Part shown: in pieces, positions 1,766-15,445 of the stretch
Numbering within the stretch: position 1 is the stretch's first letter
Layout of the letters: each line of letters starts with the position of its first letter
Assembly: GCF_021390645.1 (NCBI RefSeq)
Contig: NZ_JAJEJT010000003.1
Span: 806,001 to 870,000 of the forward strand
Length of the DNA: 64,000 nucleotides
DNA from: Paraburkholderia flagellata
GTDB lineage: Bacteria > Pseudomonadota > Gammaproteobacteria > Burkholderiales > Burkholderiaceae
Direction: 5' to 3'
Position numbers and translations under genes: made by a program
Notes under the pieces: model-generated
What the model was told of the DNA's origin: nothing
The model's input: the letters and a program-made list of their open reading frames with translations, nothing else
The model's database searches: none

Positions 1766-2191
1766 TCAGTCGTGTCGCGGCGCATCCGGCTCGGTCACGA
1801 AACCGACCTTTGCCAGTCCCGCGGCACTCGCGGCCGAGAGCAGCTTCGCCACACGCCCGTACGGCGTCGCGCGATCGGCCGAGAGACGGATTTCGGGCTG
1901 CGGCGTAAGCCGCGCGGCGGCGGCCAGCCGCGCAGATAAGCTGGCCTCCTGAACAGGCTGCGCGTTCCAGCTCATGTGGCCGAGCGCATCGACGACGATA
2001 TCGACGTGCGGTGCGGCCAGGTCCTCGCGCTGACTGCTCGCGCGCGGCAACGCCAGCTTCGCGGCATGGTGCAGAACGGGCAACGTCACCATGAAGATGA
2101 CGAGCAGCACGAGCATCACGTCGATTAGCGGCGTCATGTTGATGTCGGCTGCCGGCATCGCTTCGTCGTCCAGATCGCGATCGTCGGTCAT
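1766..2191 (-). CDS. exbD: ExbD/TolR-type energy transducer subunit
   Basis: Biopolymer transport protein of 141 residues, the usual ExbD size. It has a short cytoplasmic N-terminus, one membrane helix at about residues 17-37 that starts with the conserved MTPLIDVMLVLL stretch, and a periplasmic domain. The Asp of PLIDV is the proton-carrying residue of the family. Its ATG overlaps the exbB stop codon (ATGA). It is the last gene of the pqqABCDE-tonB-exbB-exbD operon and would use the proton gradient to drive TonB. Confidence 0.93.
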   Translation of the reverse strand: MTDDRDLDDEAMPAADINMTPLIDVMLVLLVIFMVTLPVLHHAAKLALPRASSQREDLAAPHVDIVVDALGHMSWNAQPVQEASLSARLAAAARLTPQPEIRLSADRATPYGRVAKLLSAASAAGLAKVGFVTEPDAPRHD

Positions 2192-2886
2192 ACCCGCTCC
2201 TTCAGCGTTGCCGCCTGCACTGGTGCGCTACCCGTGAGCAGGAACGCGTGCAGTCCGTATGCGAAGCGGTTGAGCTGCGCGACGATTTCGCGCGAGACAC
2301 GCGCGAGCGTGTGATAGCCAAGCACGGCGGGAATCGCTACACACAGGCCGAGCGCCGTCATGACGAGCGCCTCGCCAACGGGGCCTGCAACATGTTCGAG
2401 ACTCGCGTCCCCACTCGCGCCGAGTGCCAGTAGCGCATGGTAGATTCCCCAGACGGTGCCGAGCAGACCGACGAACGGAGCCGTGCTGCCGATCGAGGCA
2501 AGCAGCCCGAGACCGCGCTGCAGACGCGTCGAACTGTCGCCCACCGATGCCCTGAGGCTGCGCAGCAGCCACTCGCTCAAATCGACTCGTCCCCGGTGCC
2601 CAGCGCCACTCGCCTCGTGGTGCGCGAGCGCGCGCTGGCCCGCGCTGGCCAACTCGAAGAACGGCGTGCCGGGGCGGCCCAAGGCGTCGATGCCATCGTC
2701 AGCCGCGCTGGCTTCCCAGAAGCGTCTTTGCGCAGAGCCTGCATGGCGGCGCAGACGCGCGAACTCGAACGCCTTCAATACGATCACCGACCACGACACG
2801 ACCGACATCGCTACGAGCAGCGCCGCAACGAAGCGCGTCATCGGGTCGCCCTGGGCCCACAGGTGCGTGATTCCATAGGTTGGCAT
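2188..2886 (-). CDS. exbB: ExbB/TolQ-type proton channel subunit
   Basis: MotA/TolQ/ExbB proton channel of 232 residues. I chose the ATG at 2886 (MPTYGITHLW) because GGAGGA precedes it at the right distance, although the frame stays open further upstream. There is one helix near residues 17-37 and two C-terminal helices; the second holds LLGTVWGIYHAL, close to the ExbB signature. Together with ExbD it forms the channel that energises TonB. It sits 13 bases after tonB and overlaps exbD by 4 bases, so the three are translated together. Confidence 0.92.
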   Translation of the reverse strand: MPTYGITHLWAQGDPMTRFVAALLVAMSVVSWSVIVLKAFEFARLRRHAGSAQRRFWEASAADDGIDALGRPGTPFFELASAGQRALAHHEASGAGHRGRVDLSEWLLRSLRASVGDSSTRLQRGLGLLASIGSTAPFVGLLGTVWGIYHALLALGASGDASLEHVAGPVGEALVMTALGLCVAIPAVLGYHTLARVSREIVAQLNRFAYGLHAFLLTGSAPVQAATLKERV

Positions 2887-2899
2887 GAGGTCCTCCGTT

Positions 2900-3655
2900 T
2901 CATTCGCTGAGGGTGAAAGTGAACGGCACGTCGGCGCGTGCCGGCGCCGGCTTGCCGTCCTCCACATACGGCTGGCAGCGGCTCGTGAGCGCCGCGTCGC
3001 GCGCCGCTTCGTCGAGCCGCGCGAAGCCGCTGGTCGTCGCCACGCGCGCGGCGGCCACATGGCCGTCCGCCGCGGTATCGAGTTCGATGATGGCCGTGCC
3101 CGCCTCGGCGCGGCGCAAGGACTGCGCGGGATAGTCGGGCTTCGTGAGCGCGCAATCCAGATGGGCAATGCGGCGTGGCGTGTTGGTGGCGGGCGCCTGT
3201 GCGGCGGGCGCGGGTTGCGGTTGCGCTTCTGCTATCCGTTGCGTTGGCGTCGCGGTTTCGTACGCAGCGTGTGTGTCCGGTAGTACCGCTGGCGGCGGCG
3301 TCATGGGTGTGAGGTCTTGCGCATGCACGCGGGCCGCTGGACGCGTTCGAACCGGCGGCTCGGGCACATTTCGGACGGCTTGGTGAACAGACCGACTCGG
3401 CGACGGCCTTCGCGCAGGTTCTTCGCTCTTGTGCGAGACCAGTGGGATCGGCGCTATCAGCACAGCATCTACGATCTTCATGCGTACCTGCATGGCGTGC
3501 GACGCCGGCGCCTCCCACCGCGCCACGGCAATCAGCGCGGCATGCAGCGCAAGCACACCGGCGACCACACCGGCGATCGCGGCGCGCCGCCCAAACGCGA
3601 AGTGACCGAACACCGGACCCTCGCCACGATCGATGCGCGCAACGACCGACGTCAT
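2900..3655 (-). CDS. tonB: TonB energy-transducing protein
   Basis: TonB of 251 residues from the ATG at 3655 (MTSVVARI), which follows GGAG; a longer frame exists but would overlap pqqE. One N-terminal membrane helix (about residues 25-45) is followed by a Pro/Ala/Gln-rich periplasmic spacer and a C-terminal TonB_C domain (YPAQSLRRAEAG, then DGHVAAARV, ending near PFTFTLSE). It begins 13 bases after pqqE. A tonB-exbB-exbD set at the end of a PQQ operon suggests a TonB complex reserved for a receptor tied to PQQ or to the metal of the PQQ enzyme, probably the receptor at 9354-11651. Confidence 0.92.
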   Translation of the reverse strand: MTSVVARIDRGEGPVFGHFAFGRRAAIAGVVAGVLALHAALIAVARWEAPASHAMQVRMKIVDAVLIAPIPLVSHKSEEPARRPSPSRSVHQAVRNVPEPPVRTRPAARVHAQDLTPMTPPPAVLPDTHAAYETATPTQRIAEAQPQPAPAAQAPATNTPRRIAHLDCALTKPDYPAQSLRRAEAGTAIIELDTAADGHVAAARVATTSGFARLDEAARDAALTSRCQPYVEDGKPAPARADVPFTFTLSE

Positions 3656-3668
3656 TTCGACTCTCCAC

Positions 3669-4787
3669 TCAAAGCGCGAGCGAGTTCTGCTTGCTGCGGA
3701 ACACAATTGGCCGTTCGTCACTGCGTGTTGGCCGTCTCGCGAATTCCACGGCCTGCACGATGCGCTCGTGATGCGGCGACTTCGCGCACACCGGGTCCGC
3801 CGCGGCCGCGTCGCCGGTCAGTAGATAAGCCTGGCACCGGCAGCCGCCATGATCGGCGTGGCGCTCGTCGCAACTGCGGCAGGGCTCGCGCATCCAGCCG
3901 TCGCCGCGAAACGCGTTGAACGCTTCGCTCTCGTACCAGATCTGCCGCAGCGGCACGTCGCGCACGTTCGGCAATACGAGGCCCGGCAGCGAACGCGCCG
4001 CGTGGCATGGCAACGCCGCGCCGTCTGGCGCCACGCCGAGAAACACGCTTCCCCAGCCGCTCATGCACGCCTTGGGCCGTTGCTCGAAGTAGTCGGGCAC
4101 GACGAACAGAATGCGACACCGATCGCCGATGCGGGCGCGATACCGGTTCACGGTCTCCTCGGCTTCGCAAAGCTGCTCGGCGGTGGGCATCAACTGATCG
4201 CGGTTGAGCATGGCCCAGCCGTAGTACTGCGTGTTTGCAAGCTCCAGATAATCGGCGCCCAGTTCGAGCGCCATGTCGATGATCTGCGCGATGTGCGGCA
4301 GATTGAACCGATGCAGCACGCAGTTGAGGACCATGGGATAGCCGTGCGCCTTCACGAGCCGCGCAACGTTGCGCTTAAGCTCGAACGTGCGCGTGCTCGT
4401 GAGAAAGTCGTTGAGTTCGCGCGTGGAATCCTGCATCGACACCTGAATATGATCGAGCCCGGCCGCCTTGAGCCGCTCGATGCGCTCGACGTTCAAGCCG
4501 ACGCCGGACGTAATCAGGTTCGTATAGAAGCCAAGCTGCCGCGCATGGGCGACGAGTTCTTCCAGATCGTCGCGCAGCAGCGGCTCGCCGCCGGAAAAAC
4601 CGATTTGCGCTGCGCCCAGCTCGCGTGCGGCGCTGATGGTCGCGCGCCATGCTTCGGTATCGAGTTCTTCGCCGTGCCGGGCGAAGTCCACCGGGTTGTA
4701 GCAGAACGCGCAATGCAGCGGGCAGCGGTAAGTCAACTCGGCGAGCAGCCAGAGCGGCTTCGCAAGGGGAGCGGTATCGGTTGCCAT
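3669..4787 (-). CDS. pqqE: PqqE, radical SAM glutamate-tyrosine crosslinking enzyme
   Basis: Radical SAM/SPASM enzyme of 372 residues that, with PqqD, joins Glu and Tyr of the PqqA peptide in the first step of PQQ synthesis. The radical SAM cluster ligands are Cys22, Cys26 and Cys29 (CPLHCAFC); the SAM-binding GGEP follows, and auxiliary-cluster cysteines lie in the C-terminus (CRSCDERHADHGGCRC). The true start is the ATG at 4787, one base after the pqqD stop; the much longer open frame upstream runs through pqqD. The length fits the family (about 370-390). Confidence 0.96.
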   Translation of the reverse strand: MATDTAPLAKPLWLLAELTYRCPLHCAFCYNPVDFARHGEELDTEAWRATISAARELGAAQIGFSGGEPLLRDDLEELVAHARQLGFYTNLITSGVGLNVERIERLKAAGLDHIQVSMQDSTRELNDFLTSTRTFELKRNVARLVKAHGYPMVLNCVLHRFNLPHIAQIIDMALELGADYLELANTQYYGWAMLNRDQLMPTAEQLCEAEETVNRYRARIGDRCRILFVVPDYFEQRPKACMSGWGSVFLGVAPDGAALPCHAARSLPGLVLPNVRDVPLRQIWYESEAFNAFRGDGWMREPCRSCDERHADHGGCRCQAYLLTGDAAAADPVCAKSPHHERIVQAVEFARRPTRSDERPIVFRSKQNSLAL

Positions 4788-4788
4788 T

Positions 4789-5076
4789 TCAGTCGAGCCA
4801 GCCGCGCAGCCGCGCGTGATCGAGAAAGCGGTAGACGTCGGGAGCCAGTTCGGAAGTGCTGAACAGGCGCTCCAGTTCGCCAATGATCTCGTCGAGTTCG
4901 TGCGCGCCGTCACAACGCGCGAGTATCTCGCCCGCGCTCGAATTGAGCTGCACCATGCCTTCGGGATAGAGCAGCACATACGCGTCCTGGGCCGCCTCCC
5001 ACTGCAAGCGGTACATGCCGCGCAAACGCGGGCGCAGCGGCACGCCGTTGCCAGCATCGGGGACTATCGGGTTCAT
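4789..5076 (-). CDS. pqqD: PqqD, PqqA peptide chaperone
   Basis: Small peptide-binding protein of 95 residues that presents PqqA to the radical SAM enzyme PqqE. The family pattern is visible ([13 protein letters not shown], then [12 protein letters not shown] and AGEIL). The start at 5076 overlaps the pqqC stop in an ATGA, and the stop lies one base before pqqE. An in-frame ATG three codons earlier (5085) is less likely given the overlap. It is a separate gene here, not fused to pqqC or pqqE as in some species. Confidence 0.95.
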
Positions 5077-5798
5077 ATGGGCCATGCCTTTTCGACCGCA
5101 TCGAGGATCGACCAGAGAATATCGAGCTTGAACTGCAGGATCCCGACCGCACGCTGCTGTTCGTCGGCCGTGCGGAAATGGCTCAGCGTCACTTCGAGCC
5201 CGTGTTCGACGTCGCGCTGCGCGAGCGGCACGCGGCTGCGGAAATACTGGAGGCCCTGCGGCTCGATCCACGGGTAATGCGAAGGCCAGCCCGCGAGCCG
5301 GTCAAGATGAATCTGCGGCGCGAACATCTCGGTGAGCGACGAGCACACCGCCTCCTGCCACGGTGCACGCCGCGCGAAATTCACGTAGGCGTCGACCGCG
5401 AAGCGCACGCCGGGCAACACGAGCCGTTGCGACCACATCGTGTCCCGATCGACGCCGACGGCTTCACCCAGCCGCACCCAGGCTTCGATGCCGCCTTCGT
5501 CCTCGCCTTGTCCATCGTGATCGACGAGGCGCTGGATCCAGCGGCGGCGCGTGGCGCGGTCGGGGCAGTTCGAGAGGATCGCTGCGTCCTTGAGCGGGAT
5601 ATTGATCTGATAGTAAAAGCGGTTCGCGACCCACCCGCGGATCTGCGCGGGCGAACAGCGCCCGCCGTTGAGCATCCGGTTGAACGGATGATGGATGTGA
5701 TAGCGCGATTGGAGCGCGCGAAGGCGCGACTCGAATTCATTCGCACTCCATGGTATTTTGTGCGCCTCTGGCAACGTGAGTGGTGCGTTCATCGTCAT
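5073..5798 (-). CDS. pqqC: PqqC, pyrroloquinoline-quinone synthase
   Basis: Cofactor-free oxidase of 241 residues that performs the final ring closure and eight-electron oxidation to PQQ, using O2. The sequence is a full-length PqqC: the conserved [14 protein letters not shown] start, the [16 protein letters not shown] helix, and the His/Tyr/Arg-rich helical bundle to the end. Its ATG overlaps the pqqB stop by 4 bases (ATGA). Translation is probably coupled along pqqB-C-D. Confidence 0.97.
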
Positions 5799-6718
5799 AC
5801 CTGAAACTGCATGCCGTCGTGGGCCACGTCGATACCGTGTGCCCGCAGTTGCGCGTGTTCGACGGAATGCGGGTCGAGAATCGGGTTTGTGTTGTTGATA
5901 TGCGTAAGCACCTTGCGCGTGCCGCGCGGCAAGGTATCGAGCCAGTCGATCATACCCGGCGTTCCATCCGTTCCGCGCTGCGCGAGATGTCCCATGTCGG
6001 CCGCGTGTTTCGTCGAGAAGCCGAGGTCGATCATTTCGGTTGTGGTCCAGAACGTGCCGTCCACGAGCACGAGGTCGGCGTTACGCATGGTGCCGAGTAC
6101 GTCGGTACTCATCTGCGCGAGACCCGGCGCGTAGAACGCGCGCGTTCCCGTTCCGGCATCTTCGATCAGGAGTGCCACATTGTCTCCCGGCACGGATGCC
6201 TCGCGGCGCGGCGAATAAGGCGGCGGCTTGCTCTCCACGGGCATCGCCGTAAAGCGCAGGCCAGCGCAGGCCGCAATCGTGAACGGCTCGCCCGGCGTGA
6301 TCCCATGCGCGTCCACGCCACAATAGTGGCCGAGCAGCGGCACGAGCGGCAACCCGCTCGACAGATCGTCGAGCACCGGCGCGCAAGCATAGAGCGGCAA
6401 CGGCGACGTGCGTTCGCGCAGCATCAGGAGGCCCGTTACGTGGTCGATCTGCGCGTCGGTCAGGACGACGGCCGCGAGCGCGCTATCGCGCGTTGCGCGC
6501 GCGGGCTGCAGGTCGGGATGCGAGCGCAACTGCGCAAGCAGATCCGGCGACGCGTTGACGAGCACCCAGTCCACGCCGTTGCCGCTCACCGCGATCGACG
6601 ACTGCGTGCGCGGCAGAACATCCCCGCCCGCCTGCCGCGCGCGGCGGCAATTCGCGCAGTTGCAGTTCCATTGCGGCAGGCCGCCGCCCGCACCTGAACC
6701 CAGTATTCTGATCTTCAT
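5795..6718 (-). CDS. pqqB: PqqB, metallo-hydrolase-fold PQQ biosynthesis protein
   Basis: Protein of 307 residues with the metallo-beta-lactamase-like fold, proposed to hydroxylate the crosslinked Glu-Tyr intermediate in PQQ synthesis. It opens with [18 protein letters not shown] and carries the zinc-binding NCNCANC cluster, both typical of PqqB. It begins 66 bases after the pqqA stop, with a small hairpin in the gap. Length and start match the family. Confidence 0.97.
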
Positions 6719-6765
6719 GATCGTTCTCGCTGCATGCCGCCCGCTTCGCCTTCATGGCCGCGCGG

Positions 6766-6780
6766 ACGGCACACTGCCGT
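6766..6780 (-). other. stem-loop between pqqA and pqqB
   Basis: A perfect 6-bp stem (ACGGCA/TGCCGT) with a 3-base loop begins 5 bases after the pqqA stop. There is no T-tract, so it is more likely a pausing or mRNA-processing hairpin that keeps pqqA transcripts in excess over pqqB-E than a full terminator. That role is inference. Confidence 0.5.
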
Positions 6781-6784
6781 GCGC

Positions 6785-6859
6785 TCAGCGGTTGGCGATA
6801 TACATCGTGATTTCGAAGCCGAAACGCAGGTCGGTATAAGCGGGGGTGGTCCACTGCAT
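6785..6859 (-). CDS. pqqA: PqqA precursor peptide
   Basis: Ribosomal precursor of PQQ, 24 residues, too short for ordinary gene finding. The peptide begins MQWTTPAYTDLRFGFE and ends ITMYIANR; Glu16 and Tyr20 have the exact E-x3-Y spacing that PqqE joins to build PQQ. GGAGAC lies just upstream of the ATG at 6859. It is the first gene of the pqqABCDE-tonB-exbB-exbD operon and lies downstream of a sigma-54 type promoter at 6924-6940. I see no pqqF/pqqG protease gene in the window, so peptide release must be handled elsewhere. Confidence 0.97.
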   Translation of the reverse strand: MQWTTPAYTDLRFGFEITMYIANR

Positions 6860-6923
6860 GACATGTCTCCTTGTTTAAGATTGAGTCGCAATACCGCATC
6901 GAATGTGCGGCCAGTCTCTTCAA

Positions 6924-6940
6924 AGCAAGGGGCATGCCGG
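6924..6940 (-). promoter_or_regulatory. sigma-54 promoter of the pqq operon
   Basis: On the minus strand this reads CGGCATGCCCCTTGCT: a -24 GG at 6938-6937 and a -12 GC at 6926-6925, exactly ten bases apart. It is close to the RpoN consensus TGGCACG-N4-TTGCW. Predicted transcription starts near 6913, about 54 bases before pqqA. A sigma-54 activator gene ends 146 bases further upstream. Confidence 0.75.
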
Positions 6941-6988
6941 AGTGAGCCAGCGCTCGCCCGATGCAGCCAACGCTGCAAAACTGGCAAA

Positions 6989-7035
6989 GGGTGTTGCGTT
7001 TCGGAACACGGGTGCTACAGGATGCAACACCCGTG
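6989..7035. promoter_or_regulatory. putative activator binding site (UAS) for the pqq promoter
   Basis: Two nested inverted repeats: GGGTGTTGC (6989-6997) with GCAACACCC (7024-7032), and CACGGGTG (7007-7014) with CACCCGTG (7028-7035). They lie about 50-95 bases upstream of the -24 element, the normal range for an enhancer-binding activator. The core ATGCAACAC (7022-7030) recurs at 11885-11893 between the receptor and dehydrogenase genes. The CACGGGTG hairpin could also end transcription of the activator gene. Confidence 0.5.
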
Positions 7036-7085
7036 GGACAGAGGAAGATAAAGGGAGTGACGAGGCGGCGCGCGCAAATAGCGCT

Positions 7086-9074
7086 TCAAGCGTCGCCCGA
7101 GCCGCGGCACGGATCGGCAGCGGGCATCTTGCGATAGATGGTGTTGCGCGACACGCCCAGGGCCCGCGCCGCTGCCGACACGTTGCCGCCATGGCGCGCG
7201 AGCGTGGCCGCAATCGTCGACGCGGTCACGTCTTCGAGACGGGCGTCCTCCCGCACCAAAAGGTCCGCAGGCGCAGGCGTCGTGGGTAAAGCATGCGGTT
7301 CGCCCCGGCAGCGCAGATCGTCGAAGAAGTCGTCGGGCAGGTGCTCGCGCCGGATCTGGCCGTCCTCGTCGACCATGGCCGCGGCCGTGCGCAGCAGGTT
7401 GCCGAGTTGCCGGAAGTTGCCGGGCCACGCGCAGCGTTCGAACAGCGCCATCACGTCCGGCGCGACGCTGAGCGGCTCCCGGTTCGCACGCCCGTGCGAT
7501 TCGCGGTGCAAGAGCTTCTGGATCACGACCGCGAGATCAGTGCGGTCGCGCAACGGCGGCAAGCGGACCACGAGGCCATTGAGCCGGTAATAAAGGTCTT
7601 CACGGAAGCGGTTCTGGGCGATCATCTCGCGCAAATCGCGGTGCGTCGCGCAGATAATCGCGATATCGACGGGAATCGTCTTCGTCGAACCGAGCGGATT
7701 GACCATGCGCTCCTGCAGCACGCGCAAGAGACGCACTTGCAGCGGATACGGCATGTCGCCGATCTCGTCGAGAAACAGCGTGCCGCCGTTCGCCTGCAAC
7801 AGCTTGCCCACCGCACCCTTGCGCCGCGCGCCGGTAAACGCACCCTCCTCGTAGCCGAACAACTCCGATTCAATCAGCGTTTCCGGAATCGACGCGCAAT
7901 TCACAGCCACGAACGGCTGATCGCGTCGCGGCGAATCATTGTGAATGGCCTGCGCGAGCAGTTCCTTGCCCGTGCCGGTTTCCCCGGTGACGAGAACCGG
8001 AATGTCCTTGCCGATCACCTTGCGCACCTTCGCGATCACGAGCGCCACTTGCGGATCGCCCGTATCGAGGTAACTCAGGCGCGAGAGCCCCATGGATGGC
8101 GGCTGCGCCATCGCACAGGCGGACGGCGGCGCGCAAGCGTCATGCACCACGACGGGCCGGGTGCCTTCGGCCAGCGTTGCGCGCCTGAACTGCACTCGCG
8201 CGCAAACCACCGCACCGTTGACCAGATTGAGCATGACGTGCGACTCCAGGCCCGCGCGCATCCGGTCTATGAGTTGCGCGCTCGTGGTCTGGAACAGCGA
8301 CGACAGCGTATGGGCACGCAGCGCGGCGAGCGAAAGACCGAGCTGGAACTGCGCGCTACGGTTCGCCGAAAGGAAGCGCCCGTCGCTCGTGAACGCGGCG
8401 ATGCCCTCCATGAGCGTGCCGAGAAATTCGGGGCGGCCATGAAACGAGACCTGCAGCGTTTCCTGAAACGTCGTCGCAAACAAATGATTCTCGATCATCT
8501 GCACGGACATGCGCGCGAGCGCCATGGTGTGCTGGTGATAGCTGCGGTGGTCGCCCGTCACGTCCAGCACGCCGATCACGTCGCCGTACGGATCGAAGAT
8601 CGGTACGCTCGAGCAGGTGAGAAAGCGGTTCGCCGCGAGGTAATGCTGATCGCCGTGCACGACCATCGCACAGCCCTCGGCGAGCGCAGTGCCAATCGCG
8701 TTGGTGCCCTGGCGGTCTTCCGCCCAGTTCGCGCCGGGCCGCAGCGCGACCTTTTCGGCGCGCTGGAGGAAGTCGTCGTCGCCGATCGAATGCAGGATCA
8801 GCCCTTCGGCGTTGGTCAGCACGATCATGCTTTGCGTGTTGACGATCTGCTCGTGCAGCGTCTCCATCACTGGCGTGGCGTGCATGCACAGCACGCGGTT
8901 CTGCTCGCGCTTTAGCTCGAGTCCCGCGCCCGAAAGCACATCGTAATCGGGTCTCGCCGTCGCGCGCAGACCGAATGTCTCCGATCGTTCGTGCGCTTTC
9001 TGAATGGCTGGCGCGGGCCAGCCATTGGACACCAGGACCGCTTGCCCCGCGGCCATATGTACGTCGTCGCGCAT
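7086..9074 (-). CDS. sigma-54 dependent activator, AcoR-like (GAF-AAA+-Fis)
   Basis: Enhancer-binding transcription activator of 662 residues. The ATG at 9074 follows GGAGGAG; a longer frame upstream lacks such a site. An N-terminal GAF-type sensor region (about residues 60-205) resembles AcoR, the activator of acetoin/alcohol genes. The AAA+ domain has Walker A GETGTGKE near residue 364 and the sigma-54 contact loop GAFTGA near 411. The Fis-type helix-turn-helix ends the protein (GGNVSAAARALGVSRNTIY). It sits among three sigma-54 type promoters (pqqA, receptor, dehydrogenase) and is the obvious regulator of that set. The ligand is unknown, perhaps the alcohol or aldehyde. Confidence 0.93.
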   Translation of the reverse strand: MRDDVHMAAGQAVLVSNGWPAPAIQKAHERSETFGLRATARPDYDVLSGAGLELKREQNRVLCMHATPVMETLHEQIVNTQSMIVLTNAEGLILHSIGDDDFLQRAEKVALRPGANWAEDRQGTNAIGTALAEGCAMVVHGDQHYLAANRFLTCSSVPIFDPYGDVIGVLDVTGDHRSYHQHTMALARMSVQMIENHLFATTFQETLQVSFHGRPEFLGTLMEGIAAFTSDGRFLSANRSAQFQLGLSLAALRAHTLSSLFQTTSAQLIDRMRAGLESHVMLNLVNGAVVCARVQFRRATLAEGTRPVVVHDACAPPSACAMAQPPSMGLSRLSYLDTGDPQVALVIAKVRKVIGKDIPVLVTGETGTGKELLAQAIHNDSPRRDQPFVAVNCASIPETLIESELFGYEEGAFTGARRKGAVGKLLQANGGTLFLDEIGDMPYPLQVRLLRVLQERMVNPLGSTKTIPVDIAIICATHRDLREMIAQNRFREDLYYRLNGLVVRLPPLRDRTDLAVVIQKLLHRESHGRANREPLSVAPDVMALFERCAWPGNFRQLGNLLRTAAAMVDEDGQIRREHLPDDFFDDLRCRGEPHALPTTPAPADLLVREDARLEDVTASTIAATLARHGGNVSAAARALGVSRNTIYRKMPAADPCRGSGDA

Positions 9075-9204
9075 GCTCTCCTCCACGATTGGCCGGTACC
9101 TTGCCGGACACTTTGGTATTTCTCGGTGTCCTCTATTAGCAAGCTCCGGGCCATCCGGCCATCGATTCGAGCCGGGCGGTTTGCGCCGAATGCGCACGCG
9201 ACGC

Positions 9205-9211
9205 GCAACAC
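9205..9211. promoter_or_regulatory. third partial copy of the GCAACAC element
   Basis: GCAACAC, the 7-base core of the elements at 7024-7030 and 11887-11893, lies 131 bases upstream of the activator start. It may allow autoregulation, but a 7-base match alone is weak. The rest of the 279-base gap (9075-9353) shows no gene or clear terminator. Confidence 0.25.
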
Positions 9212-9353
9212 GCTATGTAAGCGAACCGTATGCAAAGCAGCACGCGTTCATCGCGACACGTGACGCAGCGATTCGCCAGACTGTGTATTACCCCAAATCG
9301 CCCGCGTGGAGGAATGCGGACTCACCCCGATACGTGCATGCAGTACCCTCCGC

Positions 9354-11651
9354 TCAATCCCACGCGTAATGGAGGCCCACCCAAAAACCGCGCGGCGCGC
9401 CTGGTCCGACGAATTGCTCGTTGACGGGATTCGCGCCGTCGAACGTGTGGCCGGGGCCGTTGAAGAAGTTCCGGCCCAGCACGCCGAAGCTCGCATAGCG
9501 TTTGTCGAACAGGTTCGTCACGTTCGCGAAGATCTCCAGCCGCTTCGTGACGTGATAGCGCGTGTCGAGATCCACGAGCACATAGCCCGCGATCTTTCCG
9601 TTGGTGTCCTGATTATTTTCATCGCCTTGCGCATACACGCCGCTGCGCCATGTGATGTTCGTGCCGATGCTCCACTTCGCCGTGGCCGCGTAGTCGAGCC
9701 GCAGCTTGACGGCATGCGCCGGAATGCCGGGCACGTGGTCACCCGGCCGCACAGTCACGACGCCGTTCGCATCCGCTGAGGAATTCGCCGGGCTTTGCTC
9801 GGTCCACGTCGAGCGGTAGGTCGCGTCCACATAGCTGTAGTTCAGACCAATGCCAACGGGGCCGAACACCGTGTGCCCCGCGAGTTCGACACCCTGACGG
9901 CGCGTCTTGCCGACGTTCTGAAAATAGCCCTGCGTGCTGCCCGCCGCGCTCACGAACTCGATGTCGTTGGAGAGCGTGGTGCTGAATGCGGCGGCGCTCC
10001 ACGTTGTCGACGCGCCAATATGGCCGCGCGCGCCTGCCTCGAAGGTCTTCGAGACCACGGGCTGCAACGCCGGATCGGCCACGAAGTCGTTCGGCAGTGA
10101 GCATGGCGCTGCTGGGTCCGCGCACGCCAGCTCGATTGCAGTGGGCGCGCGCATGCCTTCGTTGTAGGCCGCGTAGACGGTGACGGCTGGCAGCGGATTC
10201 CAGTTCAGCCCCACGGCGGGATTGAAGCGCGAGAACGTGTGATAGCCGTCGAGCAGCGGCTGCGCGCCGCTCTCGTCGGCAATGCGGGCGCTCGCCCAGT
10301 CATAGCGTCCCGAAAGCGTGAGCGTCCATTGCGGCGTGAACGTAAGCGTTTCGTTCAGATAGACGCCATAGTTCGCGTTGCGCGTTTTTGCATCGGTCTG
10401 CTGAACGAAATCGCCGATGCCGACCGTCGCGCGGTCGGGGGTGAACGAGGCGTCCTGCGAAGACGAAACGTAGTGCGAGTTCGCGAAGTCCGCCGCCACG
10501 CCCGCAACGAGCTGGCTCCCAATGCCGCCCAGCTTGCCGAGCAGCGTGAGTTGCAGGCTCGCGCCAAAGCTGTCCGTGGTGACGACGGAATCGACGTTGG
10601 TGCCCTCCAGCGTGTCGACGTTGCCGTCTGCATCGATCGAGCCAAAGTCAGTGTTGTTGTTGCTGCTCAGGTTCTCGTTGCGCAGATGGCGATAGTAGGC
10701 GTTGCCGCTCAGCTCCACGTTGTCGTTGAAGAAATGGTCGCCCGAGAGCGTGAGGTAGCCTACGCTGTTGCGATTCAGGTCTGGAAACGTATACGCCTGT
10801 TTCGGGTCGTCGAGAAACGAGCGCGGAATAGTCTGGCTGCCGTAAAGTTGGTTGTCCGCGCCGCCGCCCGAGATCGAAAGCGTCGTGTCGTCGTCGATAT
10901 AGCGCAGTTTGCCGAATGCCTGGCGCACGCGGCTCGCGTTGTGATCGGCCCAGCCGTTGTCGTTCGTGACGTTCGCGTTTGCGTAGTAGTCGACGTGCTG
11001 TCCAAGCGTGCCGCCCTGCTCGAACTGCGCGCTCTTGCGCCCCCATGAGCCCCCCGAGAGATCGATGTCACCGCCGGGACTCGTGCGTCCGTTCTTCGTC
11101 GTGATCGCGATTGCGCCGCCCAGTGTATTGAGCCCGTACACGGGATTCGAGCCTGGAATGAGCTGGATCTTGTCGATTGCCCCGGTCGGTATCAGGTCCC
11201 AGTTCACGACGTCGCCAAACGGCTCGTTCACGCGCACGCCGTCGACGAACACCGACAATCCCTGAGGGGTGCCAAGCACTGGCGAAGCCGTGAAGCCGCG
11301 ATAGTTCAGATTCATCTGGAAAGGATTGCCCTGGGCGTCGGTCACGCTCACACCTGGCAGGTTCGCGGCGAAGAAGTCAGTCAGCGTTTCGCGGTGCTGT
11401 GTCGCGATATCCTGCGCGCTCACGGTCTGCACGTTGGCCGGCACCTTCGCGAGCGGCGTGCCGATACCGAGCAGCGGCGTCGTGCCGACCACGACAACGC
11501 CTGGCAGAATGAGCGGGCTCGCGGGTTCGCTCTGTTCCTCAGCCGCAGCCACAGCCGGCGAGGATGCACCCGCGCAAAGCGCGCCGAGTGTGAGGCCTGC
11601 GCCAAGCACGGCGTATGTGCGCCGGGCGTTCGCCTCCTTCTCTGGAATCAA
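9354..11651 (-). CDS. TonB-dependent outer-membrane receptor
   Basis: Outer-membrane active transporter of 765 residues. It starts with TTG at 11651 after GGAGACGAAAG. A signal peptide covers about residues 1-36, then a TonB-box-like VVVVGTTP near residue 52, a plug domain (DFFAANLPGVSVTDAQGN; YRGFTASP; VFVDGVRVNEPFGD) and a 22-strand type barrel ending ...RGFWVGLHYAWD. It diverges from the PQQ dehydrogenase gene and has its own sigma-54 type promoter. Given a dedicated tonB-exbB-exbD in the pqq operon, the cargo may be a lanthanide chelate or PQQ; the sequence alone does not settle this. The terminal residue is Asp, not the usual aromatic. Confidence 0.92.
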   Translation of the reverse strand: MIPEKEANARRTYAVLGAGLTLGALCAGASSPAVAAAEEQSEPASPLILPGVVVVGTTPLLGIGTPLAKVPANVQTVSAQDIATQHRETLTDFFAANLPGVSVTDAQGNPFQMNLNYRGFTASPVLGTPQGLSVFVDGVRVNEPFGDVVNWDLIPTGAIDKIQLIPGSNPVYGLNTLGGAIAITTKNGRTSPGGDIDLSGGSWGRKSAQFEQGGTLGQHVDYYANANVTNDNGWADHNASRVRQAFGKLRYIDDDTTLSISGGGADNQLYGSQTIPRSFLDDPKQAYTFPDLNRNSVGYLTLSGDHFFNDNVELSGNAYYRHLRNENLSSNNNTDFGSIDADGNVDTLEGTNVDSVVTTDSFGASLQLTLLGKLGGIGSQLVAGVAADFANSHYVSSSQDASFTPDRATVGIGDFVQQTDAKTRNANYGVYLNETLTFTPQWTLTLSGRYDWASARIADESGAQPLLDGYHTFSRFNPAVGLNWNPLPAVTVYAAYNEGMRAPTAIELACADPAAPCSLPNDFVADPALQPVVSKTFEAGARGHIGASTTWSAAAFSTTLSNDIEFVSAAGSTQGYFQNVGKTRRQGVELAGHTVFGPVGIGLNYSYVDATYRSTWTEQSPANSSADANGVVTVRPGDHVPGIPAHAVKLRLDYAATAKWSIGTNITWRSGVYAQGDENNQDTNGKIAGYVLVDLDTRYHVTKRLEIFANVTNLFDKRYASFGVLGRNFFNGPGHTFDGANPVNEQFVGPGAPRGFWVGLHYAWD

Positions 11652-11750
11652 CTTTCGTCTCCGTCTGTTTTATGCGCTCACGCGAGTTGCGCGCCGAAGC
11701 GCCAGGCGCAGACCGATGCGCACACAACCGTCTCCTCTTTGCCGTTATCT

Positions 11751-11766
11751 AGCCAGGAACGTGCCA
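11751..11766 (-). promoter_or_regulatory. sigma-54 promoter of the TonB receptor
   Basis: Reads TGGCACGTTCCTGGCT on the minus strand. The -24 half TGGCACG matches the RpoN consensus perfectly; the -12 half keeps the essential GC, ten bases from the GG, but has TGGC in place of TTGC. Transcription would start near 11739, leaving a leader of about 88 bases. Confidence 0.6.
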
Positions 11767-11884
11767 GCACACTCGGAGATGCCCTTCGCTTTGCCCTGGC
11801 CACTGAGGATCCGCGCATACGCGCTTGCCGCGAGCCGCCCCACTGTCACGTTCGCCAACACTTTTCGACGCGGCATGTACCGGA

Positions 11885-11893
11885 ATGCAACAC
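11885..11893. promoter_or_regulatory. shared activator-site candidate ATGCAACAC
   Basis: Same 9-mer as in the pqq control region (7022-7030), with further similarity on the GTGTTGCAT strand (then TCCGGTA here, CCTGTA there). Distances to the -24 GG are 88 bases for the dehydrogenase, 120 for the receptor and 84 for pqqA, all workable for an enhancer-binding activator. A second loose half, CCAACAC, lies at about 11855-11861. Confidence 0.45.
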
Positions 11894-11971
11894 ATCGGCC
11901 ACACGCGAGGCACCTCGCCGATGAGCCGATCAACGGGCTGCATCGCCCGTCACACAACGCTCCGCGGCGAA

Positions 11972-11987
11972 TGGCATACGACTTGCG
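11972..11987 (+). promoter_or_regulatory. sigma-54 promoter of the PQQ dehydrogenase
   Basis: TGGCATACGACTTGCG with GG and GC ten bases apart and both halves near consensus. Transcription would start near 11998, about 80 bases before the dehydrogenase ATG. Confidence 0.72.
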
Positions 11988-12078
11988 TGAATGGCTGCGC
12001 ACCCGGACCGGCCCCATCCTCGCGCATCCAGCCTGACCGCTTCCCGGCCGTGCATCGACAAATATTCAGGAGACGAAG

Positions 12079-13806
12079 ATGAAGAGACGCTCGGCTGCGG
12101 CAAGCCGGCTTGCGACCTGCGCAATGGCCATCGCGGCAGCGATGTCCCTGAACGCCGGCCCCGTGGATGCCGCCTCGGACTATCCGCCCGTGACCTACGA
12201 CCGCCTGACCCGCGCGCAAAGCGACCCAGGCTGGCTCACGTACTACCGGAGCTACAACGGCCAGTCGCATTCGCCGCTCAAGCAGATCGACGCGTCGAAT
12301 GTCGGCGAGTTGAAACAGGCGTGGAGCTACCAGTTTCCCGCCGAGCTGAAACAGGGCTTCGAGGCGACGCCTATCGTCAACGGCGACTATCTCTTCGTCA
12401 GCACGCCGAAAGATAATGTCTACGCCTTCGATGCGAAGACGGGCACGCAACTCTGGAAATACGAACCGAAGCTCGGCGCTGAGTCGTTCAAGACCGCGTG
12501 CTGCGACGTGGTGAACCGTGGTGTCGCGCTCTACGGCAAGAACGTCTATATCGCCATGCTGAGCGGTGAAATCGCAGCGCTGGACGCGAAGACCGGCAAC
12601 GTGGTCTGGAAGAAGCAGATGTTCGAACCGGGCCTGGGCTACGCGTTCTCGCTCGCGCCACTTGCGCTCGACGGCTCGATCGTCGTGGGCACCTCGGGCG
12701 GCGAGTACGGCATACGCGGCTACATCGCCGCGCTGAGCCCCGACGACGGCGCGATCGTGTGGAAGCGCTACACCATTCCTGGCTCCGGCGAAAAAGGCTC
12801 GGAAACCTGGCCCGACGGCATGCAGGCGCACGGCGGCGGCGCCGCATGGCTCACCGGCACCTATGATGCCGCGAGCCGCACGCTCTACTGGGGCGTCGGC
12901 AACCCCGGCCCCTGGCTCGCCGCACTGCGTCCCGGCGATAATCTGTACTCCGATTCGCTTCTCGCGCTCGACCCGAAGAACGGCAAGCTCAAGTGGCATT
13001 ACCAGTACACGAGCAATGACACGTGGGACTATGACGGCGTCAATACGCCGATCCTCGCAACTATCCAGTACAAGGGCAAGGATTACGACGCCATCATCCA
13101 CGCCGACCGCAACGGCTTCTTCCACGCTATCGACCGGCAAACGGGCAAGCTGATCTATGCGGAGCCGTTCGTAAAAGCGACCTCCGTGACCGGCTACACG
13201 GACGACGGCAAGCCGGTTCAGGACCCGTCGAAATATCCGAAAGCCGGCACGACCATCGACACGTGCCCGAGTTTCCTTGGCGGCAAGAACTGGTGGTCGG
13301 TGTCCTACGATCCGGAGCGGCACATTGCCGTGGTGCCCGCGCTGCACGCGTGCATGAGTCTCTCGGGCAAGTCGGTGAGCTATATGGAAGGTCTGCCCTA
13401 TCTTGGCGAAGGCTTCGAAATCAAGCCTGAACCGGGCAGCGAAGGCTATGGCGAACTGCAGGCCATCGACGTGAACACCGGCAAGAAGCTCTGGGGCCAC
13501 TGGAGCAAGATGCCCTGGAACGGCGGCGTGGCGACCACGGCAAGCGGACTCGCGTTCAGCGGCTCGCTCGACGGCCATCTCTATGCGTTCGACGTCGCCA
13601 CAGGCAAGGTGCTCTGGGAAAGCCCGCAACTCGCAAGCGGCATCGTCGCGCAGCCTTCCGTGTTCGAAGTTGACGGCAAGGAGTACGTGGCCGTGCTTGC
13701 CGGCTACGGCGGCGCGAATCCGATCTGGGGCGGCCCGATGGCCGATGTGGCGAAGGATGTCCCGCGCGGCGGCACGCTCTACGTGTTCGCACTGGACCGG
13801 GGCTGA
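12079..13806 (+). CDS. PQQ-dependent alcohol dehydrogenase, lanthanide-type metal site
   Basis: Periplasmic quinoprotein of the XoxF/ExaF/PedH class, 575 residues, oxidising a primary alcohol and passing electrons to cytochrome c. A signal peptide ends near residue 33. The eight-bladed propeller motifs are present (DAKTGTQLWKYEP; DVATGKVLW). Cys141-Cys142 form the typical vicinal disulfide over PQQ. Metal-site residues in family order are Glu209 (GGEYG), Asn275 (GNPGPW) and catalytic Asp317 (TWDYDG). Asp319, two residues on, is the extra carboxylate found in lanthanide enzymes; calcium enzymes have Ala or Ser there. CAGGAGACG precedes the ATG. Its promoter is sigma-54 type. The substrate (methanol, ethanol or other) is not certain. 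Confidence 0.93.
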   Translation: MKRRSAAASRLATCAMAIAAAMSLNAGPVDAASDYPPVTYDRLTRAQSDPGWLTYYRSYNGQSHSPLKQIDASNVGELKQAWSYQFPAELKQGFEATPIVNGDYLFVSTPKDNVYAFDAKTGTQLWKYEPKLGAESFKTACCDVVNRGVALYGKNVYIAMLSGEIAALDAKTGNVVWKKQMFEPGLGYAFSLAPLALDGSIVVGTSGGEYGIRGYIAALSPDDGAIVWKRYTIPGSGEKGSETWPDGMQAHGGGAAWLTGTYDAASRTLYWGVGNPGPWLAALRPGDNLYSDSLLALDPKNGKLKWHYQYTSNDTWDYDGVNTPILATIQYKGKDYDAIIHADRNGFFHAIDRQTGKLIYAEPFVKATSVTGYTDDGKPVQDPSKYPKAGTTIDTCPSFLGGKNWWSVSYDPERHIAVVPALHACMSLSGKSVSYMEGLPYLGEGFEIKPEPGSEGYGELQAIDVNTGKKLWGHWSKMPWNGGVATTASGLAFSGSLDGHLYAFDVATGKVLWESPQLASGIVAQPSVFEVDGKEYVAVLAGYGGANPIWGGPMADVAKDVPRGGTLYVFALDRG

Positions 13807-13833
13807 ACCGAGCCTCCCGCTTCTCGCCTTCCG

Positions 13834-13864
13834 CCGCACGCGCACGCCACCCGGGCGTGTGCGG
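13834..13864 (+). other. stem-loop between dehydrogenase and fusion cytochrome
   Basis: CCGCACGCGC (13834-13843) pairs with GCGTGTGCGG (13855-13864) through one G-T pair, with an 11-base loop. No T-run follows, so it probably stabilises the upstream mRNA or weakens read-through between the abundant dehydrogenase and the genes below. Confidence 0.4.
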
Positions 13865-13890
13865 CCCCGCCTTCACTGGAACGTACGATC

Positions 13891-15111
13891 ATGAATATCC
13901 GGATCACCTATCTCGCCGTGGCCGCCGCGCTCGCGGCAGGCGGCGCGCACACCAGCGTACATGCCGCGACGAATGCCGTGCGCGTTTGCACGCTGCCAGG
14001 GAGCCCCACGGCTGTGCTCGACCAGACCGTCGCGCGCGCCGTGCTGAAAACCGCTGGCGTGGCCGCCACGTTCGTCACGCGCGGCATCGACGACGATGGC
14101 GGCGACGACGGCATCTCGGCGCGCGAACTCGCCAGCGCGCTGGGCCGCGACTGCGACCTCGTCGCCGGTTTCCCGCGCTCGAGCGTCGCCGACGCATCGG
14201 GCTCGCAGATGATCTTTTCGCAGAGCTATCTACGCTCCGGCTATGTGAGCGTCACGTTACGCCACGCACGCGCCGCCGCACCCGCTGCCGACGGCAAGGA
14301 AACGGTCGCGGCAACCTGGTCCAGCCCTTCGCAACTCATCGCCGTGCAGCAGAAGAACGCGCGATTCGACCTGGAAAACACCTCCGAGCTGACCGTCGAC
14401 GCAGTCGCAAAAGGGCGAGCGCAGCGCGCAATCGTCTGGTATCCGGCCGTCGTGGCCTACCAGCGCGCGCATCCACAGCATCAATTCGCGGTTGCGGCGA
14501 CGTCGTCGCCGTATGCCGACTGGCATCTCGTGTTCGCTTCAGGATCTGACATGCGTGCGCTGCAAACGCGCATCGACGACGCCCTTGCGCGCATGAATGA
14601 CGACGGCCGCCTCGCCGCACTCACGCGCGGCTGGACGCTGCCGGATGGCGCTGCGAGCGAGGCGCGTTCGAATGCGTCGCATCTCGATGGCATGAAGACC
14701 TCATATCAACGTGCCACGATGCATACGGCAGCCGCGATCATCAAGGTCTCCGCAACGACCGGCGGCAACGCGCCCGCATTCGACCACGATCAGGTCGAAC
14801 ACGGCCAGCATCTTTATTCGGAATCCTGTGCGAAATGCCACGGCGCGCAACTCGAAGGCATCACCGCGCCCGCGCTGAGCGGACCGGCCTTCGCGCCCGC
14901 GGCGAATTCGCATCTGACGATCGGCGGCATCTACCAGTATATGTCGACCAATATGCCAGCCGATCGCCCCGGCAAGATGACCGATCAGGAGTACGCAGAT
15001 TTGATGGCCTTCCTGCTCTACACGAACGGCTATGACACAGGCAACGCGAAGCTCACTTCCGAAGCCGCTCAAACGTCGACCACGCCGCTCAACGCCGGCC
15101 CGCGACACTAA
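13891..15111 (+). CDS. periplasmic binding protein (XoxJ/MxaJ-like) fused to cytochrome c
   Basis: Two-domain periplasmic protein of 406 residues. A signal peptide covers about residues 1-26. Residues about 30-255 form a solute-binding-like domain (VRVCTLPGSPT; DCDLVAGFPRS; SYLRSGYVSVTL) resembling MxaJ/XoxJ, the partner of methanol dehydrogenases. Residues about 298-385 form a class I monoheme cytochrome c with CAKCH at 313-317 and a likely axial Met at 355 (TNMP). Such cytochromes (XoxG) take electrons from the dehydrogenase. In methylotrophs XoxJ and XoxG are separate genes; here they are one chain. It lies 84 bases after the dehydrogenase and 19 before the HiPIP gene. Confidence 0.85.
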   Translation: MNIRITYLAVAAALAAGGAHTSVHAATNAVRVCTLPGSPTAVLDQTVARAVLKTAGVAATFVTRGIDDDGGDDGISARELASALGRDCDLVAGFPRSSVADASGSQMIFSQSYLRSGYVSVTLRHARAAAPAADGKETVAATWSSPSQLIAVQQKNARFDLENTSELTVDAVAKGRAQRAIVWYPAVVAYQRAHPQHQFAVAATSSPYADWHLVFASGSDMRALQTRIDDALARMNDDGRLAALTRGWTLPDGAASEARSNASHLDGMKTSYQRATMHTAAAIIKVSATTGGNAPAFDHDQVEHGQHLYSESCAKCHGAQLEGITAPALSGPAFAPAANSHLTIGGIYQYMSTNMPADRPGKMTDQEYADLMAFLLYTNGYDTGNAKLTSEAAQTSTTPLNAGPRH

Positions 15112-15130
15112 CACGACCCAGGAAACCAGC

Positions 15131-15445
15131 ATGAACACCCGCAATCGCAGAACCTTCATCCTTCACGCGGCCGGTCTTTGCGCAGCGCTTGTCACGGCCG
15201 GGCGCGCACTCGCCACACCTGGCCTCGTCGACGAGAGCGACACCACCGCGAAGTCGCTAGGCTACCGCGCCAAGGCCAGCAGCGTAGACGCAGGCAAGTT
15301 TCCGAAGTACGCAGCGGGTCAGCGCTGCGCGAGTTGCCGCTTCTATGCGGGCGCGGCGGGCGACGCCGCAGGCGCATGCCCGATGTTCCCCGGCAAGGCG
15401 GTTGCCGCCGATGGCTGGTGCAACGTCTACGCCCCGCGCGCCTGA
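15131..15445 (+). CDS. high-potential iron-sulfur protein (HiPIP)
   Basis: Small periplasmic electron carrier of 104 residues. The start is the ATG at 15131 after AGGAAACC; the longer open frame upstream overlaps the cytochrome gene. A twin-arginine signal (NRRTFILHAAG) fits export of a folded 4Fe-4S protein. Four cysteines follow the HiPIP pattern: CASC, then GACPMFPG, then GWCNVY. As the third gene of the dehydrogenase cluster it may carry electrons from the cytochrome domain onward to an oxidase or reaction partner; that link is inference. Confidence 0.9.
   Translation: MNTRNRRTFILHAAGLCAALVTAGRALATPGLVDESDTTAKSLGYRAKASSVDAGKFPKYAAGQRCASCRFYAGAAGDAAGACPMFPGKAVAADGWCNVYAPRA

Follow-up and report, generated by a model that had tools for sequence, protein, structure and literature searches.

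Four described systems each resemble part of a 13.7-kb gene cluster of Paraburkholderia flagellata: the ped cluster of Pseudomonas putida (PedE/PedH), the xox/mxa genes, the lut cluster with its receptor LutH, and PqqU (YncD), an importer of pyrroloquinoline quinone (PQQ). The cluster lies at 1766–15445 of the 64,000-nucleotide stretch analysed here (assembly GCF_021390645.1, contig NZ_JAJEJT010000003.1, positions 806,001–870,000; hereafter the window), in a 9.0-Mb genome assembled in six contigs. Like the ped cluster it has its own regulator and an alcohol dehydrogenase (ADH) whose closest solved relative is PedH; unlike it, the regulator is a sigma-54 activator and there is a pqq operon and a TonB system of its own. 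The available portion of one account of P. putida KT2440 describes ped control by PedS2-PedR2 and other regulators, an inner-membrane ABC transporter (PedA1A2BC) and no LutH homologue, and calls lanthanide entry across the outer membrane unresolved (PMC12997753). In insect-associated Burkholderiaceae a genomic region is described, in the part of the source available, as containing pqq genes, a histidine kinase, a sigma-54 regulator and methanofuran-pathway genes (PMC9088363); compared by this published content alone, it resembles a second locus, with pqqBCDE and the receptor gene, that occurs in many relatives, and it differs from the ADH cluster of the window. The window cluster stands apart from the known PQQ-ADH clusters in its sigma-54 wiring, in having its own TonB system within the pqq operon, and in a binding-protein–cytochrome fusion and a high-potential iron-sulfur protein (HiPIP) as likely electron carriers. 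A search of open-access literature by title and start of abstract found no description of a lanthanide-type ADH cluster of Paraburkholderia, nor of a HiPIP acting as partner to a quinoprotein alcohol dehydrogenase.

The cluster is very probably a single sigma-54 regulon, as judged from its predicted promoters. A minus-strand operon runs unbroken in the order pqqA-B-C-D-E-tonB-exbB-exbD (intergenic gaps of 66, -4, -4, 1, 7, 13 and -4 bp, the tonB start sitting 7 bp past pqqE), the activator and receptor genes (acoR and tbdr) are on the same strand upstream of pqqA, and the adh, fusion and HiPIP genes diverge from the receptor gene. Conserved -24/-12 sites precede each of these transcription units (Table 1). 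Their conservation was counted in two sets of loci, both found through the fusion gene, whose presence is therefore by construction: 69 stretches from 68 genomes of the genus (G133 twice), being the best 69 besides the window's own from at least 103 genomes that match the fusion, and 80 named loci (45 Paraburkholderia, 21 Burkholderia, 13 Caballeronia and one uncultured Ralstonia). In the remaining fusion matches listed, the matching region is the cytochrome half or, at low similarity, the binding-protein half. Fourteen of the 69 stretches end at contig ends and others stop before acoR, and absences there are weak.

Allowing up to two mismatches, and with mononucleotide shuffles for the genus loci and dinucleotide shuffles for the named loci, the adh site is present in 66/67 genus loci and in 79/80 named loci (4.5 expected from shuffling), the acoR site in 47/50 and 71/74 (2.4 expected), the receptor site in 16/16 and 30/33 (1.7 expected), and the pqqA site in 32/52 and 56/73 (3.1 expected); with three mismatches the pqqA site is found in all 52 genus and all 73 named loci. 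In the genus loci the stretch upstream of exbD, which is internal to the operon, gave 0/18 sites, and that upstream of tonB 2/10. The sites cluster near -100 for adh, -80 for pqqA and -70 for acoR, and their position is variable for the receptor; the activator start was set at 9074 because the -24/-12 site lies 79 bp upstream, as in relatives. The loci are related and the two sets overlap, so that the counts are not independent, which weighs against too strong a reading; they are a measure of conservation rather than a probability.

The regulator has the Sigma54_activat AAA+ and Fis helix-turn-helix domains of sigma-54 activators, and is named AcoR-like from its domain composition; it matches the DhaR family (NF008485) over most of its length with 272 bits, below the cut-off of 551. 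Palindromes of the type TGTNNC..GCAACA are present upstream of adh, pqqA and the receptor gene in many loci and are candidate sites for its binding. The genome holds two exact copies, both at the cluster, from which the pattern was itself derived; with up to two mismatches there are 200 genomic sites compared with 193 for the reversed pattern. This lack of selectivity also counts against the interpretation, and the genome-wide search was rejected as evidence, the palindromes being kept as positional support only. The proposal in a preliminary description of the window that the cluster is under one switch thus appears well supported by the conserved sites at adh, pqqA, tbdr and acoR and by a palindrome that recurs at the cluster.

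Table 1. Predicted genes and candidate regulatory sites of the cluster (window coordinates).
Feature	Coordinates	Strand	Match or remark
exbD	1766..2191	-	PF02472, 100.6 bits
exbB	2188..2886	-	PF01618, 104.3 bits
tonB	2900..3661	-	TIGR01352 (TonB C-terminus), 42.9 bits, cut-off 27.1, scored on 2900-3721
pqqE	3669..4787	-	TIGR02109, 537 bits
pqqD	4789..5076	-	TIGR03859, 109 bits
pqqC	5073..5798	-	TIGR02111, 347 bits
pqqB	5795..6718	-	PF12706, 147 bits
pqqA, 24-residue precursor peptide with E..Y core	6785..6859	-	24-codon ORF (open reading frame)
-24/-12 site upstream of pqqA	6924..6939	-	CGGCATGCCCCTTGCT; kept in relatives
Candidate activator site upstream of pqqA	6990..7008	-	palindrome
Second, weaker candidate activator site upstream of pqqA	7013..7031	+	palindrome, 2 mismatches
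Sigma-54-dependent activator (GAF, PAS, AAA+, Fis-HTH)	7086..9074	-	PF00158, 233 bits; PF02954, 45 bits; PF01590; PAS_4 weaker
-24/-12 site upstream of activator gene	9138..9153	-	TGGCCCGGAGCTTGCT; kept in relatives
TonB-dependent receptor (tbdr), 765 aa	9354..11651	-	PF00593, 186 bits; PF07715; start codon uncertain
-24/-12 site upstream of receptor gene	11751..11766	-	TGGCACGTTCCTGGCT; kept, distance varies
Candidate activator site between divergent adh and receptor promoters	11876..11894	+	palindrome
-24/-12 site upstream of adh	11972..11987	+	TGGCATACGACTTGCG; kept in relatives
PQQ alcohol dehydrogenase, lanthanide (WDYD) type by sequence marker, 575 aa	12079..13806	+	TIGR03075, 564 bits, cut-off 480
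Periplasmic binding-protein domain and cytochrome c domain (CAKCH) fusion, 406 aa	13891..15111	+	PF13442, 44 bits
HiPIP with twin-arginine-like leader	15131..15445	+	PF01355, 79 bits; start is second Met of ORF 15032-15445

We consider it reasonably probable that these genes form a regulon, induced by alcohol and driven by sigma-54, that serves a periplasmic PQQ alcohol dehydrogenase of the lanthanide type, and in which the receptor most likely imports metal. The activator would sense an alcohol or its product, bind the palindromes, as their conservation suggests, and fire sigma-54 RNA polymerase at four promoters serving adh-fusion-HiPIP, the receptor gene, its own gene and pqqABCDE-tonB-exbB-exbD. 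Cofactor would be made by the pqq genes, as is established for these families, and TonB-ExbB-ExbD made from the pqq operon would energise the receptor. The receptor would import the other component of the active site, with a lanthanide or a lanthanide chelate the most likely ligand. Electrons taken from PQQ would first reach the cytochrome c domain of the fusion and go on from there to the HiPIP and the respiratory chain. The coupling of cofactor synthesis, oxidation and electron transfer put forward in the preliminary description is supported in that the genes for all three are at one locus, from which we infer a joint function. Profile searches recovered every part it had named within the 13.7 kb, the binding-protein half of the fusion only weakly, and follow-up added pqqA, which it had missed. 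The genome-wide profile search gives a single pqqE over the cut-off and a single TIGR03075 enzyme over the cut-off, both at the cluster, with no second TIGR03075 match at 1e-30 in the genome. The term self-contained nevertheless has to be used with caution: PQQ repeats are also present in two ORFs (853 and 856 aa) elsewhere in the genome, which would draw PQQ from the same pqq set.

The dehydrogenase scores above the cut-off for the methanol/ethanol-type PQQ enzymes; among solved structures it is nearest to PedH (6zcw, E = 4.6e-124), followed by ExaA. An extra aspartate two residues past the catalytic one (D-x-D) is a marker of lanthanide-dependent PQQ dehydrogenases, and because the window enzyme carries it in the sequence WDYDGVN (WDFDGVN in PedH and WDFSG in ExaA), it is of the lanthanide type by this sequence marker. 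The extra residue is present in all 68 ADH sequences of the locus family, that of the window included, and the motifs GGEYG, GNPGPW and WD, which we take to be metal-ligand motifs, are intact.

The helper genes of xox and mxa systems encode a cytochrome (XoxG) and a binding protein (XoxJ/MxaJ). Here too a binding protein, faintly similar to MoxJ, and a c-type cytochrome are encoded after the dehydrogenase, but as one fused polypeptide with a HiPIP added and with family scores far under the cut-offs: the binding-protein half gives 19.4 bits to TIGR03871 (MoxJ; cut-off 212) and 13.5 bits to TIGR03870 (cut-off 258), values that do not place the fusion in the XoxJ/MxaJ families. TIGR03871 is nonetheless matched at E<=1 by six of the seven members of the fusion alignment, across which the fused architecture is kept, and the fusion also weakly matches TIGR03872 (MoxG). 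Its cytochrome half is clearly recognised by PF13442. The fusion and the HiPIP are the likely electron carriers of the dehydrogenase. A point against this assignment is that, with presence scored at 75% or more of gene length (40% for tonB), the HiPIP gene is in a minority of loci (21/69 genus loci and 35/80 named loci).

The receptor, whose best named relatives are from Paraburkholderia, was sought in 144 genomes of the genus, scoring seven candidates per genome, and in 398 genomes sampled from the phylum, scoring two. In the genus it is found in 88 genomes, pqqE in 101 and both in 86; of its 91 copies, 81 have pqqE no more than 10 kb away (four fragments, two in G111 and one each in G106 and G040, are excluded from the copy count). 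Among the 101 pqqE genomes, the receptor is present in 86 of the 92 with a soluble methanol/ethanol-type enzyme and in none of the nine without one over the cut-off (Fisher 2e-9, uncorrected for kinship). The 15 pqqE genomes without a receptor match comprise these nine, most with only ~800–840-aa frames, and six with a TIGR03075 enzyme; in three of these six, receptor remnants of 3–13% of its length at L106 (G051), L053 (G078) and L150 (G069) are a sign of loss. A soluble enzyme is present in all 86 genomes with both receptor and pqqE, 62 having the ADH type of the window, nine a more distant relative and 15 an enzyme recognised by TIGR03075, with the D-x-D motif read in part of these genomes. 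Those last 15 had seemed to have a receptor without a lanthanide-type enzyme in a first scan of at most nine candidates per genome; this argument for PQQ uptake was rejected, since every one of them proved to encode a TIGR03075 enzyme.

In the phylum sample the receptor is found at E<=1e-70 in 19 genomes, P. flagellata included, which may be an undercount. All 18 others encode a TIGR03075 enzyme over the cut-off (within the fetched 20-kb stretch in eight), compared with 6 of 22 selected receptor-less genomes, 11 of the 22 being genus members without pqqE. Reading of the loci showed a D-x-D enzyme in 17 of the 18, and in three of those six as well. XoxF-like genes are ~40 kb from the receptor in several genomes (such as G010 and G122), and in L318 and L320, from outside the class, the receptor gene lies between a histidine kinase gene and xoxF, with a YncE-like propeller gene near. 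The receptor thus tracks lanthanide-type dehydrogenases and not PQQ synthesis in itself; its presence nearly always implies such an enzyme and the converse does not hold. We therefore favour a metal ligand over PQQ. The likeness to LutH, also a TonB-dependent receptor tied to lanthanide-type dehydrogenases, comes from linkage alone, and differs in that here the receptor adjoins a tonB-exbB-exbD set inside a pqq operon.

Several observations weigh against a metal ligand. The solved structure closest to the receptor profile is not a metal receptor but PqqU (6v81 and 9c4o, 1.1e-27 and 1.7e-27), followed by BtuB (5.3e-15); G539 has the receptor and only a calcium-type enzyme in the locus read (one of its four TIGR03075 matches); nine genomes (G014, G047, G051, G069, G078, G120, G162, G374 and G350) have a lanthanide-type enzyme with no receptor match; and absences of the receptor are provisional, few candidates having been scored per genome. 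A somewhat unlikely alternative retains the same regulon and makes the receptor an importer of PQQ or of a PQQ-metal complex that recaptures cofactor lost from the periplasm, as a distant functional counterpart of PqqU. The rank of PqqU among solved structures agrees with this, as do the co-occurrence with pqqE in 86 of 88 receptor genomes, the close spacing of the two genes, and the YncE-like propeller gene that adjoins the receptor in two loci (L134 and L311) as yncE adjoins pqqU in Escherichia coli. Two genomes with no pqqE match, G004 and G025, also retain an ADH locus (L062 and L061) together with a receptor gene with tonB-exbB-exbD elsewhere (L129 and L130) and are possible PQQ scavengers; the pqqA pattern is absent from both, a pattern that also misses many pqqE genomes. 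The retention of the receptor and its TonB set in these two genomes counts in favour of the metal reading as well.

Identity with PqqU itself was rejected on the binding signature given in the available part of PMC12124388 (Y/F/W99, R304, R365), which the receptor lacks: the position of Y99 is taken by Leu126, which does not vary among 18 members, that of R365 by Asp400 (an uncertain alignment), and that of R304 by Arg324, which is not invariant. The score to the PqqU family (NF041535) is 129 bits compared with a cut-off of 1200, and the nine pqqE genomes with no TIGR03075 enzyme over the cut-off have no receptor match, which also speaks against PQQ as the ligand. The same available part reports PqqU beside pqq genes in four Burkholderiales genomes and proposes that some PqqU proteins co-transport PQQ with a metal (PMC12124388); co-transport of this kind would reconcile the two possibilities. 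Of the metal or PQQ uptake named in the preliminary description, we thus lean towards metal, with PQQ as the rival.

The composition of the locus varies considerably. In the 69 genus loci, adh is present in 67, pqqA in 62, pqqD in 60, acoR in 50, pqqE in 23 and the receptor gene in 16, and the complete set including TonB-ExbB-ExbD and HiPIP is found in eight (L044–L050 and L052, with pqqB partial in L048 and pqqC not found in L052). The receptor, acoR, pqqA, pqqC and adh occur together in 28 of the 80 named loci (14 Paraburkholderia, 13 Burkholderia and one Caballeronia). The core is adh, the fusion, acoR and pqqA, and the whole package is not fixed, contrary to the idea of a constant unit. 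Linkage had been offered at the outset as the test of a joint function: the receptor, the TonB system and pqqBCE are indeed unlinked from the rest in most relatives, whereas adh, acoR and pqqA remain together, with the fusion by which the loci were selected, in 72 of the 80 named loci.

Many relatives instead have pqqBCDE and the receptor gene, often with a TonB system, at a separate locus that resembles a methylotrophy island; outside the ADH locus the receptor gene mostly follows pqqBCDE, often with tonB-exbB-exbD after it. In L134 (eight ORFs) its neighbours encode a cytochrome b561, a histidine kinase, a YncE-like propeller, TonB, ExbB and Ftr of the methanofuran/tetrahydromethanopterin pathway, and ftr, kinase and propeller genes are likewise near it in L311, from another genus of the family. 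A cytochrome b561-like gene (1221–1751) is also tail to tail with exbD in the window, and one is upstream of pqqB in many of the second loci.

It is improbable, in our view, that history accounts for most of the neighbourhood, with a pqq/receptor block and a dehydrogenase block having landed together while being regulated separately. As this would predict, most of the genus has the two blocks at different places, and few loci hold the complete set. Where the blocks do occur together, however, there is a sigma-54 site in front of each of adh, acoR, pqqA and tbdr, and the linkage recurs in several arrangements and in Burkholderia. On a receptor tree (FastTree, 66 rows) membership of the ADH locus changes at least five times, and the receptor–ADH linkage has therefore probably arisen more than once. 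The tree leaves out L181–L191, identical rows and receptor matches below 90% of length, and labels L131 as an island locus with the ADH ~6 kb away in the genome; relabelling it leaves the count at five. In P. phosphatilytica (L250/L107) acoR-pqqA-pqqD-adh-fusion is followed directly by pqqB, pqqC, pqqE and the receptor gene, so that the two blocks adjoin.

That the receptor serves to supply iron to the HiPIP and haem proteins by taking up a siderophore, with only an indirect link to lanthanides, is very doubtful: its best NCBIfam score is to a siderophore receptor family (181 bits, under the cut-off of 223.5) and the HiPIP and cytochrome require iron, but its linkage across the phylum sample is to PQQ genes and lanthanide-type enzymes, and most receptor loci have no HiPIP gene.

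Reduction of the pqq genes follows a particular pattern. In 37 of the 69 genus stretches the ADH locus retains just pqqA and pqqD of the five pqq genes, and all 37 genomes have pqqE elsewhere; full sets at the ADH locus are, in contrast, the sole set of the genome in 14 of 19 (Fisher 2e-9). Remnants of pqqB, pqqC or pqqE are present in five of the reduced loci (L057, L064, L084, L097 and L105), and on the ADH tree the reduced and full states interchange at least five times, loci with one gene partly lost being counted as full. L054 and L254 are likewise among the ADH loci with the reduced operon, and P. xenovorans LB400 is of this type. The solitary pqqD is of normal length in 35 of 36 cases and, from its median pairwise dN/dS of 0.20 (0.11 in full operons), looks to be under purifying selection. 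The available part of one source describes pqqA in these bacteria as a degraded fragment, ~100 bp long (PMC9088363); at 6785–6859 of the window and in L145, L146, L148 and L151–L153 it is an intact ORF of ~23–24 codons with the E..Y core. The usual PqqA peptide is of this size.

PqqA is consumed in PQQ synthesis and is carried by PqqD, and the two can thus be seen as the stoichiometric parts of the pathway. Perhaps these parts are kept under the switch and the catalytic enzymes shared from elsewhere; where relatives have a second pqq operon, the set at the ADH locus is cut to pqqA and pqqD, which would keep the coupling to demand and drop the common enzymes. We tentatively suggest, as a possibility short of even odds, that PqqA and PqqD are wired to the sigma-54 switch of the dehydrogenase and that, where there is no second operon, as in P. 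flagellata, the whole pathway and a TonB-energised receptor for rare-earth metal stay under it, so that the supply of cofactor, metal and enzyme would be set by one signal. The literature search described above found no description of pqqA and pqqD retention, and to our knowledge the matching of PQQ supply to demand in bacteria is poorly understood. The cluster is one small locus in which both lanthanide entry across the outer membrane and the matching of PQQ supply to demand could be tested, and the repeated retention of pqqA and pqqD suggests that a simple rule may decide which steps in making a peptide-derived cofactor must follow demand.

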